Positions 3,371-48,469 of a stretch of DNA of 64,000 nucleotides are shown piece after piece. The notes under the pieces are model-generated. The model was given only the letters and a program-made list of their open reading frames with translations, was not told where the DNA came from and searched no databases. Source of the DNA: Desulfocicer vacuolatum DSM 3385 (lineage in GTDB: Bacteria > Desulfobacterota > Desulfobacteria > Desulfobacterales > Desulfobacteraceae); assembly GCF_900176365.1 (NCBI RefSeq), contig NZ_FWXY01000003.1:124001-188000 (forward strand). The letters run 5' to 3'. Position 1 is the stretch's first letter. The number at the start of each line of letters is the position of its first letter. The position numbers were made by a program, and so were the translations under genes.

Positions 3371-3607
3371 TCAGCAGAGCCGCGCCCCCGATGGGCAATA
3401 GGAACCGGACAATTGAGCTATCTACAGTTCCGGTCCGGACCCATTGCCCACCGGGGCGCGGCAGCATAATACCATTTTCTATATTCGTTGTGGCTGAAGA
3501 TTACAGCCATGTGGGTTTATATGAAATACTCCGCAAATTTGTGGAGAATTTCTATCTTTGTTGTGGGCAGAGCCGGATCGGAATACGGTCCGCCCGTGGC
3601 GGTTATA
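3371..3607 (+). repeat. composite palindromic repeat A1+B1
   Basis: Part A (3379-3462) is a long hairpin: GCCGCGCCCC pairs with GGGGCGCGGC, and TGGGCAAT with ATTGCCCA. Part B (3518-3607) holds two smaller hairpins, CTCCGCAAATTTGTGGAG and a GGGCAGA...TCCGCCC stem, ending GGCGGTTATA. Near-identical composites recur at 41817-42026 and 48202-48431, with solo B units elsewhere. The unit ends just before the 3' end of the neighbouring minus-strand gene. Confidence 0.85.
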
Positions 3608-3619
3608 AAAAATTCAAAG

Positions 3620-8203: not shown

Positions 8204-8291
8204 AAAAATAAAGTGGCCATGGCCCTGACATTAAAGGCTTTGCAAGTGCTGCTGCAATTGAGTTATGCTGTTTTTGTTATTTTTCATTTTT

Positions 8292-8382
8292 TATAACTGC
8301 CACGGGCAGACCTTATTTTGATCCGGTTCTGCCCACAACAAAGATAGAAATTCTCCACAGATTTGCGGAGGATTGCATATAA
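8292..8382 (-). repeat. dispersed repeat B2
   Basis: Minus-strand copy of the B unit: TATAACTGCCACGGGCAGA, TTCTGCCCACAACAAAG and a CTCC...GGAG hairpin. It lies between the divergent DUF299 operon and the unknown gene at 8492. Confidence 0.8.
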
Positions 8383-8491
8383 AAACGGTCATGTCCTTTG
8401 CAACACAACAAATATTGAAAATGGCATTATGCCGCCCCCGACGACTATCCTGTCCAAAACCCATATCAATCCACACCCAAGGATCCCATCC

Positions 8492-8953: not shown

Positions 8954-8982
8954 GTAGTGTAGCGTCAAATCTTAATTTTAGG
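8954..8982 (-). repeat. solo end of D-family MITE
   Basis: GTAGTGTAGCGTCAAATC followed by TTAATTTTAGG matches, inverted, the right terminus of the elements at 9812-9919 and 29366-29470. No partner end is visible nearby, so this is a fragment. Confidence 0.6.
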
Positions 8983-9172
8983 TTCTGTTGACATTTTGTG
9001 AATTCTTCATAATTTATTCAAATTTAATATTTGAAACGCATAAAACAGATCATGGGTAATGCAAATTTATCAAACGTTGTATGGTTTAAAATATTAAATT
9101 TTTTAAAAAATTATCCGCACTTTGCGCGGAAACAGCAAACGCTTTCAGCACCCTTAGATTGTATCTCTGACG

Positions 9173-9811: not shown

Positions 9812-9919
9812 CCACTGCACAGTCAAAACTTAATTTCAGGATTGCCGATTTCCCAATATGCCATGGTGAAATACTTTTCGCAATCTGTCATCCTAAATTT
9901 TAGTTTGACTATGCACTAC
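9812..9919. repeat. D-family MITE-like element, complete copy
   Basis: About 108 bp with imperfect terminal inverted repeats of about 30 bases: left CCACTGCACAGTCAAAACTT, right (inverted) GTAGTGCATAGTCAAACTAA, both running into TTTCAGGAT/TTTAGGAT. No coding capacity. Related copies at 29366-29470 and a solo end at 8954-8982. Confidence 0.7.
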
Positions 9920-23903: not shown

Positions 23904-23976
23904 GCGTCTGTTTAAAAATCAGGGAATGGCAATGAACTCCCATGAAATTGCAGCCGATTCATCTATTTTTTAGTTA

Positions 23977-24103
23977 ATATTCGGTCAGCGCCCCATTTTC
24001 ACCTGTTTTGGCCTGCTCACCCGTAGCAATAGTATGCTACGCAGTCCCAAGCAGGTGAATATGGGGCACGGCCCAAACATTTACATTACCAAGCCGAATA
24101 TTT
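23977..24103. repeat. C-family palindromic element, uninterrupted copy
   Basis: 127-bp imperfect palindrome with ends AATATTCGG/CCGAATATT, inner arms CCCCATTTTCACCTG/CAGGTGAATATGGGG and a GTAGCA...TGCTAC tip. A second copy at 29301-29533 is interrupted by a D element. It follows the fusA stop and could act as a bidirectional terminator for fusA and the convergent M48 gene. Confidence 0.7.
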
Positions 24104-24146
24104 ACATTTTTTAGAAGTCCCCAAGACAGATGGAAGGAGTCAACAC

Positions 24147-28171: not shown

Positions 28172-28339
28172 CTTAGGACCGCAGATGAAATAACTTGAGC
28201 AGAAATAGCGCAGAATTTTGGTTCATCTACAAGGCGCATTAAAGGTTTAATAGCAGGCCTGTTTGGCCTTTGATGCAACGCAGTAGATGGGCCAAAAGGC
28301 AAGCTATTTCGTTCAAGTTATAAAATTTGCGGTCCTTAG
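28172..28339. repeat. element E: 168-bp imperfect palindrome
   Basis: Left arm CTTAGGACCGCAGATGAAAT and onward pairs with the right arm ending ATTTGCGGTCCTTAG; inner arms AACTTGA/TCAAGTT, AGAAATAGC/GCTATTTC and ATCTAC/GTAGAT continue it. It sits directly after the acyl-CoA synthetase gene, before the convergent PilZ-LuxR gene, so it may terminate both. Confidence 0.65.
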
Positions 28340-29008: not shown

Positions 29009-29300
29009 GGTTCCCCCTTTGTTATCAATCTCCATACATTGCCACCTGAAAAATGCATTCACCCCATCAATATTCGGGCAACCTCCCGTCTTCACTGAGT
29101 TTGAGAGGCTACATTAAAAAAAGCCCCGGCCGGGAACAACCAAGCCAATAGGTGCAGTGGTAAAACATTTACATTACCATGCCCAACACGTCCAACGCCG
29201 GTATCATGTAACGTCAGTATATTTTAGATGAGCACACAGTACCTGTCAATGTGTGCAGCCATATTTTCAATGTTCATTGCTCAATCATACCTGATTTTGG

Positions 29301-29533
29301 TAAATATTCGACCGGCACTCCATCTTCACCCATTTGGGCCTGCTCACATAGCAAAAGTATGCTACTGAATGGTCAAGGCTAAGATTTGAGACGATAAAGT
29401 TCAAAGATTATTACCCCACGAGATCTTTGAGAATTAATAATCCTAAAATTAAGATTTGACGTTGCACTACGCAGTCTTAACAAAGCAAATATAGAGCACT
29501 GACCGAACATTCACAGACCAAACCGAATATTTA
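29301..29533. repeat. C-family palindrome interrupted by a D-family MITE
   Basis: Ends TAAATATTCG (29301) and CCGAATATTTA (29533) match the C copy at 23977-24103. Its tip sequence TATGCTAC...GCAGTC is split by 29366-29470, leaving CTAC on both sides. The rest of the ~740-bp gap between the PilZ-LuxR and zraR genes shows no gene. Confidence 0.7.
29366..29470. mobile_element. D-family MITE inserted in a C palindrome, CTAC target duplication
   Basis: 101 bp plus one 4-bp duplicate. Right end (inverted) GTAGTGCAACGTCAAATC, left end CTACTGAATGGTCAAGGC, both resembling the 9812-9919 element. CTAC at 29362-29365 and 29467-29470 flanks it; the uninterrupted C copy has a single CTAC at this point. 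No transposase within, so it must be moved in trans. Confidence 0.65.
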
Positions 29534-29747
29534 GGCATCTTTCATACAGCTTCAAAAAAAGTTTACACTTTTTCATCAAATTTTCCCGGAAAATGGCTAC
29601 ATCTGTCTGAAAAGTGTAAGCTGAAAAATGAAACATGCCAATATTTACTGATTTTATTATTATTTGTGTAAAATCTTAAAGATATACACCAACCAACGGG
29701 AATCCCGGGCCCACCGCTATCGGTTTAAACACAAATCGTTTCTAAGG

Positions 29748-36813: not shown

Positions 36814-36900
36814 AGTGGTTGCATCCCTGACTATTTGAGCCCCCGATCTTCCTGCACAGGCCAGGCAAACGTCGGGGGTAGCATTTCAGAAGTTTTTTTT

Positions 36901-37076
36901 TATATGAAATACTCCGCAAATCAGGGATGTATTTCAATCTTCGTTGTGGCCAGACTGAGTTCAGAATAAGGTCTGCCCATGGCAGTTATATGAAATACGC
37001 CACAAACCGGGGGTGTATTTCAAGCTTTGTTGTGGGCAGAGCCGGATCAGAATACGATCTGCCCGTGGCGGTTATA
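36901..37076 (+). repeat. tandem pair of B repeats (B3a, B3b)
   Basis: Two consecutive B units, 36901-36990 and 36987-37076, sharing the junction TATATGAAATAC. Each has the TTGTGG...CAGA...TCTGCCC hairpin and the GGCRGTTATA end. They fill the gap between the MoxR and CoxE-like genes. Confidence 0.8.
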
Positions 37077-37111
37077 CGAATTCATAAGTCCGGTGTTGGA
37101 AAAATTTCCAA

Positions 37112-41816: not shown

Positions 41817-42383
<567 letters not shown>

Positions 42384-48201: not shown

Positions 48202-48431
48202 CTCAGCCGAGCCCCCCCCGAGGGGCAATAGGAACCGGCCAATTGAGCTGTCTACAGTTCCGACCGGGCCCATTGCCCCTCGGGGGGCGGCGGTATGACA
48301 CCATTTTCACTATTCGTTATGTTCGACAGGACATGCCCGTTTATGTGAAATACGCCGCAAACCTGTAGAGAATTTCTATCTTTGTTGTGGGCAGACCGAG
48401 GTTAGAATAAGGCCTGCCCATGGCGGTTATA
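48202..48431 (+). repeat. composite repeat A4+B6
   Basis: Same architecture as 3371-3607: A hairpin (GCCCCCCCCGAGGGGCAAT...ATTGCCCCTCGGGGGGC at 48211-48290), a short link ACCATTTTC...TATTCGTTAT also present in the first copy, then a B unit (48341-48431). It lies after cobT, before a convergent small gene. Confidence 0.85.
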
Positions 48432-48469
48432 GAAAAAACCGGGATGGATGCAGTTTTATTAAATGTTTT

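Follow-up and report, generated by a model that had tools for sequence, protein, structure and literature searches.

A 101-bp IS630-type MITE nested in an older palindromic MITE in Desulfocicer vacuolatum

The window considered here is a stretch of 64,000 nucleotides (G000:C37:124001-188000) from the genome of Desulfocicer vacuolatum DSM 3385, which comprises 5.04 Mb in 80 contigs. A palindromic repeat, designated C, is present in it both uninterrupted and split. The uninterrupted copy is 133 bp long and is bordered by a perfect 8-bp duplication, ATTTTTTA (23965-23972 and 24106-24113). The split copy (L001) extends from 29300 to 29534, a total of 235 bp, and the tip of its palindrome is occupied by a 101-bp segment, designated D, that reads TGAATGGTCAAGG...GACGTTGCA and has CTAC on both sides (Table 1). 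The nested insertion of D within C, with CTAC on either side, had been proposed in a preliminary description; both a re-reading of the sequence and the existence of C paralogues without the insert confirm it. The uninterrupted copy, placed there at 23977-24103, is also real but extends a little further. The D end was given as GTAGTGCA.., but part of this is the duplicated target (GTAG/CTAC), and the element itself begins with TGCA, or with TGAA in the window copy. Directly after the nested pair lies an intergenic repeat, designated E (L072, L107, L066).

Table 1. Positions of the repeats, repeat ends, and target duplications within the window
Feature	Position	Strand	Remarks
Lone D-type end	8958..8984	+	24/27 bases; no partner at >=18/27 nearby in the window
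Second D-type copy	9816..9915	-	100 bp; flanks CCAC / CTAC
Uninterrupted C copy	23973..24105	+	Paralogous empty site; ATTTTTTA on both sides
Repeat, D-free in the window	28172..28339	+	Paralogue at C20:49147 carries D, with the duplication CTCA
C, left 8-bp flank	29292..29299		TGATTTTG; duplication decayed, 4/8 match the right flank
C MITE, left arm	29300..29361	+	Starts GTAAATATTCGA
CTAC left of D (4-bp target duplication)	29362..29365		Belongs to the tip of the C palindrome
D, 101-bp IS630-type MITE	29366..29466	+	Ends TGAATGGTCAAGG and (inverted) TGCAACGTCAAAT
CTAC right of D (4-bp target duplication)	29467..29470		Read from the sequence
C MITE, right arm	29471..29534	+	Ends CCGAATATTTAG; most C copies end ..TTTAC
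C, right 8-bp flank	29535..29542		GCATCTTT
Repeat E, D-free	29551..29646	+	D at two different sites elsewhere: C42:75928, C27:75747

C is itself a MITE, having inverted ends and a duplication of fixed length, 8 bp. The 8-bp flanks are identical in 18 of the 32 C copies measured, and exact matches at 4-7 or 9-12 bp number 0. Thirty of these copies are free of an insert and span 104-136 bp; the two longer ones are the window copy and a second D-bearing C of 223 bp (L071), which starts at C39:140208. With the intact C as query, at least 40 distinct places are found at 80-100% identity, each as one stretch and at least 2 of them partial; this count scores 40 of 108 first-look candidates and leaves out 5 rows that are opposite-strand duplicates of places already counted. 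C is probably commoner than the 40 places scored, and loose matches to its ends number 128, versus 20 in the control. C folds much more stably than shuffled versions of its sequence (z of -5.97), and with D inside z is -2.68.

The family to which C belongs is perhaps of the IS66 type, a guess suggested by its ends and duplication, since IS66-family ends begin with GTAA ('GTAAGCG') and the family makes an 8-bp duplication (PMC11946415), and C likewise starts with GTAA and duplicates 8 bp. The ends of C, however, read GTAAATATTCGG. The IS66 DDE domain (PF03050) has no match in the D. vacuolatum genome, in a search whose positive controls ring in 4 of 14, and a C-like end is present at 0 of 30 IS66 loci of relatives, where two loose matches agree at 7/12 bases at the tip and where the flanks may miss the IS ends. 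A parent of C was thus found neither in its own genome nor among the 30 loci of the relatives.

D, too, is a MITE: it is short and non-coding, has terminal inverted repeats, and occurs in many dispersed copies. The genome search for D ends advocated in the preliminary description returns 53 matches to the end pattern, versus 0 for a reversed control, and pattern and similarity searches together yield 24 copies in which both ends are present; their length is 100-101 bp in 23 and 231 bp in one. D occurs at least 24 times; 9 lone ends and some partial matches were set aside. No match (0) came from an exact search of a genome collection with a degenerate D end, though that collection may have lacked the window's own genome. 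The ends of D mostly read TGCA..TGCA, and the duplications beside them are of 4 bp, NTAN. Flanks are identical at 4 bp in 11/24 copies, at 1 bp in 13/24, and at 2, 3, or 5-12 bp in 0/24; three copies are one base off-register in this count, and upon correction two become 3-of-4 matches and none becomes exact. Shuffling the right flanks among the copies gives a mean of 2.8 exact 4-bp flanks, and 11 were reached in 0 of 20,000 shuffles. The four-mers that are duplicated exactly are GTAG, CTAC, CTAT, ATAG, and one CTCA; this last target, at C20:49147, contains no TA. Thirteen of the 24 copies do not have perfect 4-bp flanks, and those at C39:103488 and C46:13050 have almost no duplication. Thus, insertion at TA with duplication is seen for D as NTAN in most copies, with four bases duplicated and not two. 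At one locus (L066, C54:15799-16003), two D copies lie side by side and share one CTAC, the later D having inserted precisely into the CTAC that the earlier one had duplicated at its flank.

Empty sites were sought by joining the flanks of the 24 D insertions and comparing them with the DNA of the loci analyzed. Paralogues that span the junction and lack D exist for 6 of the 24: two in C, one in the repeat at 28172-28339 (for the insertion at C20:49147), two in E (C42:75928 and C27:75747), and one in the L069 repeat (C49:39789). The two D copies of contig C54 were excluded from this count, their matches being each other's ends in one locus, and the remaining 16 insertions have no empty-site paralogue in the DNA compared. 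At the junction, the paralogues have one 4-mer, which is CTAC in C and GTAG for C27:75747. Other junctions are imperfect: GTAG reads GTAT in the paralogues for C42:75928 and C49:39789, and the paralogue for C20:49147 has a 2-bp gap. All of these empty sites are paralogous, the 57 relatives compared including no member of the same genus. The exact flanks of 11/24 copies and the empty sites for 6/24 uphold the earlier claim that D is a real mobile unit with a 4-bp target duplication.

At the window locus, the C duplication has decayed to 4/8 matches and the D duplication is intact, which fits the idea that C is the older element there. The earlier statement that C is older than D therefore stands for this locus, as it does for L071, but does not necessarily extend to the two families as a whole. 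The inserts of the window copy and of L071 occupy the same CTAC in the same orientation. They are 68% identical to each other; the L071 insert is 89-96% identical to six D copies elsewhere, and for the window D, identity to four others (C39:103488 and copies on contigs C31, C22, and C20) is 87-91%. Because the D subfamilies differ, the two insertions look independent, and the simplest reading is that they arose separately at one site.

A transposase gene between D-type ends, which had been named as something to look for, is present in the same genome as a full-length element that is interrupted and whose two parts lie at the ends of different contigs. On contig C78, close to its end (L063, from 3984), the flank CTAG is followed directly by the end TGCATAGTCAAGACTAAATTTTAGGAT and then by an ORF for the N-terminal 141 aa of the transposase. 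Near the start of contig C74 (L060, up to 1923), an ORF for the C-terminal 231 aa is followed by the inverted end TGCAGCGTCAAACCTTAATTTTAGGAT and the flank CTAG. The L063 end matches the commoner D left end at 24/27 bases and the window-type left end at 22/27; the L060 end matches the D right end at 25/27. The C-terminal half of the transposase scores 130.9 bits on the NCBIfam IS630 model NF033545 (cut-off 100) and also matches Pfam DDE_3 (PF13358); the N-terminal half alone scores 45.3 bits on the same IS630 model, below the cut-off of 100. Judged by sequence, then, D and an IS630-family element have their ends in common, and D is an IS630-type MITE.

The break in this element is marked on the C74 side by a fragment of an IS1380-family transposase (187 bits; cut-off 180). 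On the C78 side, CCTAAAATAAGCGTG past the break is the mirror image of CCTAAAACAAGCGTG on the C74 side, displaced by one base; ATTAG is found at the break on both sides (L063 4461-4465, L060 1180-1184). The natural reading is that a single IS630 copy was broken by a single IS1380 element, of which only the C74 side is typed. Contigs C78 and C74 are probably neighbors across one IS1380 copy (L063 4466-4759, L060 1-1179). The C-terminal transposase half has no match in the genome other than the interrupted IS630, and present activity is doubtful for that reason; D has probably ceased to move in its own genome.

Matches to the C-terminal transposase half are found in 9 of 58 genomes, D. vacuolatum included, and plasmid relatives of this half are 70% (Acaryochloris) and 69% (Methylobacter) identical. 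Of 80 loci of transposase relatives, 73 were used and 7 with partial matches or short flanks were left out. Automatic end-finding is noisy: ends were assigned for 68 of the 80 elements entered, many of them visibly misplaced. Among the 68, exact 4-bp flanks are present in 21 (18 CTAG, 2 CTAC, and 1 TTTA), flanks agree at 1 bp in 11 and at 2 bp in 3, and none agree at 3 or 5-10 bp. CTAC lies on either side of two full-length relatives (L113 and L115). Five plasmid elements have CTAG on both sides, a palindrome that cannot separate a 2-bp from a 4-bp duplication; one of these five, L229, starts with TAG and not TG. A distant IS630 relative (L118, 24% identical) has no identical 4-mers beside the ends chosen. 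In L113, L114, L115, L226, and L227, the transposase is encoded in two frames, an HTH part and a DDE part, which, by analogy with the report for ISHsp2, suggests frameshifting or coupled translation; in L228 and L230, the annotation gives a single transposase gene each. When a looser pattern was applied to 58 genomes, a member of another genus of the same family (G001) gave 65 D-like ends, versus 0 in the control. Six of the 7 loci inspected there have both ends of a D-like MITE of 102 bp, and all six of these have identical 4-bp flanks (CTAC in three, ATAG in three). The same genome has no match to the transposase half searched, and a driver is unseen there. Its D-like loci (L313, L318-L323) also include pairs of ends just 72 bp apart and a tandem at C21:2373-2519.

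Together, the repeat structure, the duplications, the paralogues, and the ends of the interrupted element indicate that D is very probably an IS630-type MITE, presumably moved in trans, that inserts at NTAN and is nested in an older MITE, C. D would consist of two IS630-family IS ends and about 45 bp of filler and would be non-autonomous; its interior is not recognisably derived from an IS. An IS630 transposase acting in trans would bind the TGCAnnGTCAA ends and cut D out, D would then enter a target of the form NTAN (in most cases GTAG/CTAC), and all four bases would be duplicated when the staggered cut is repaired. At the window locus, C would have inserted first, generating its 8-bp duplication, and D would later have landed in the CTAC of the C hairpin tip. 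The best reading of the present situation is that D is a MITE driven by IS630, that its driver in this genome is broken, and that its movement was presumably in trans.

Other readings of the nested site differ in what they make of the two D-bearing C copies. That the 101 bp were original to a subfamily of C, other copies having lost them by deletion between the CTAC repeats, can hardly be correct: the inserts of the 2/32 copies that have one do share their position and orientation, but 30/32 are insert-free, the two inserts belong to different D subfamilies (68% mutual identity versus 87-96% to copies elsewhere), and C houses just 2 of the 24 D copies, exact 4-bp duplications flanking 10 of the other 22. 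These duplications of their own, outside C, refute D as a part of C. The preliminary description had raised the prospect that other C copies contain the same 101 bp; 30/32 do not have an insert, and the insert in L071 is of a different D subfamily. It is less improbable, though still unlikely, that the C tip is a preferred target for D, recognized through its hairpin or its sequence, with the nesting thus directed and not accidental. YPAL elements are described as inserting at or beside dyad symmetry (PMC2229807), and two apparently independent insertions at one CTAC compare with 0.08 expected (P ~0.003) for 16 D insertions and 43 C tips, with all GTAG/CTAC sites equally open, the number of C tips being an estimate and that of GTAG/CTAC sites an extrapolation from the window. 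However, the expectation rises to 0.5 (P ~0.09) if insertion is tolerated at 15% of sites, the assumed intergenic share, and it would rise again if C copies exceed 43, as they may well do. Furthermore, hairpin propensity is no greater at the 24 joined D sites than at 114 GTAG/CTAC sites in the window, and D is also present in three other repeats. The balance leans toward coincidence combined with sequence preference for the two C-tip insertions, a hot spot being statistically insecure.

A further alternative concerns the duplication: D may duplicate TA only, like ISY100 and Tc1/mariner, with the outer bases agreeing by chance or through target preference. TA duplications have been described for members of this group (PMC2170065), and the full-length IS630 relatives lie mostly in the palindromic CTAG, where 2 and 4 bp are indistinguishable (18 of the 21 with exact flanks, and all 5 plasmid elements). 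At D itself, however, the outer positions may hold G, C, A, or T and yet match across the two sides, as in GTAG/GTAG, CTAT/CTAT, ATAG/ATAG, and CTCA/CTCA; the outer two flank bases agree in 35/48 cases, versus 16.3 when shuffled, and this level was reached in 0 of 20,000 shuffles. Since they differ between copies and agree within a copy, the duplication is of four bases and not of TA alone. The paralogue junctions, too, have one 4-mer (CTAC in C, GTAG for C27:75747, GTAT for C42:75928 and C49:39789), and a TA-only duplication is consequently very unlikely.

D and its IS630 lineage probably represent a branch of IS630/Tc1/mariner that cuts with a 4-base stagger centered on TA, versus the 2-base stagger of ISY100 and mariner; the lineage meant here has mostly TG..CA ends, a transposase often split over two frames, and members in several phyla. 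ISY100 is reported to duplicate TA (PMC2170065), and NTAN targets are in print (PMC5678879). If this reading is true, MITEs like D, which sit in non-palindromic NTAN sites, reveal a 4-base stagger and a 4-bp (NTAN) duplication that palindromic CTAG targets otherwise hide in this lineage. ISHsp2 of Halomonas is a comparable case, with an IS630-family transposase in two ORFs and the 4-bp duplication TTAA, whereas elements related to it duplicate TA (PMC3606827). Unlike D, ISHsp2 is autonomous, and the two are likened by description and not by sequence.

Among MITEs, RUP of Streptococcus pneumoniae (107 bp) has been proposed to be moved by IS630-Spn1 (PMC2229807). RUP and D are alike as non-coding MITEs of about 100 bp with IS630-type ends and TA-containing targets (PMC2229807). 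D differs from RUP in its sequence and host, in its 4-bp NTAN duplication, and in that the only parent copy found is interrupted. MITEPsy1 of Pseudomonas syringae is a 100-nt MITE with a 4-nt duplication, CTAG or YTAA, and it also occurs inside another mobile element (PMC3189936); it has been traced to ISPsy2 ('IS5?'), and its ends are different from those of D (PMC3189936). Nesting among RUP, BOX, and SPRITE has been described (PMC3049150). The available portion of a review of MITEs (PMC10969869) makes no mention of IS630 or IS66.

IS630-driven MITEs, the nesting of one MITE in another, and an IS630 element that duplicates 4 bp are thus already in print. To these, the present analysis adds a new MITE family together with its parent, which is interrupted; good support for a 4-bp duplication in the lineage; the relative age of C and D at the window locus; and several paralogous empty sites. 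The nesting of D in C is a clean but ordinary case of mobile elements accumulating in the DNA of bacteria; it accounts for part of the intergenic repeat clutter of this genome and leaves the general view unchanged. Members of one more dispersed family, about 100 bp in length, also occur in the window, in both orientations (3516-3618, 8281-8383, 36893-37090, 41932-42034, and 48340-48436), with associated repeats of 72-91 bp near 3385, 41823, and 48215.
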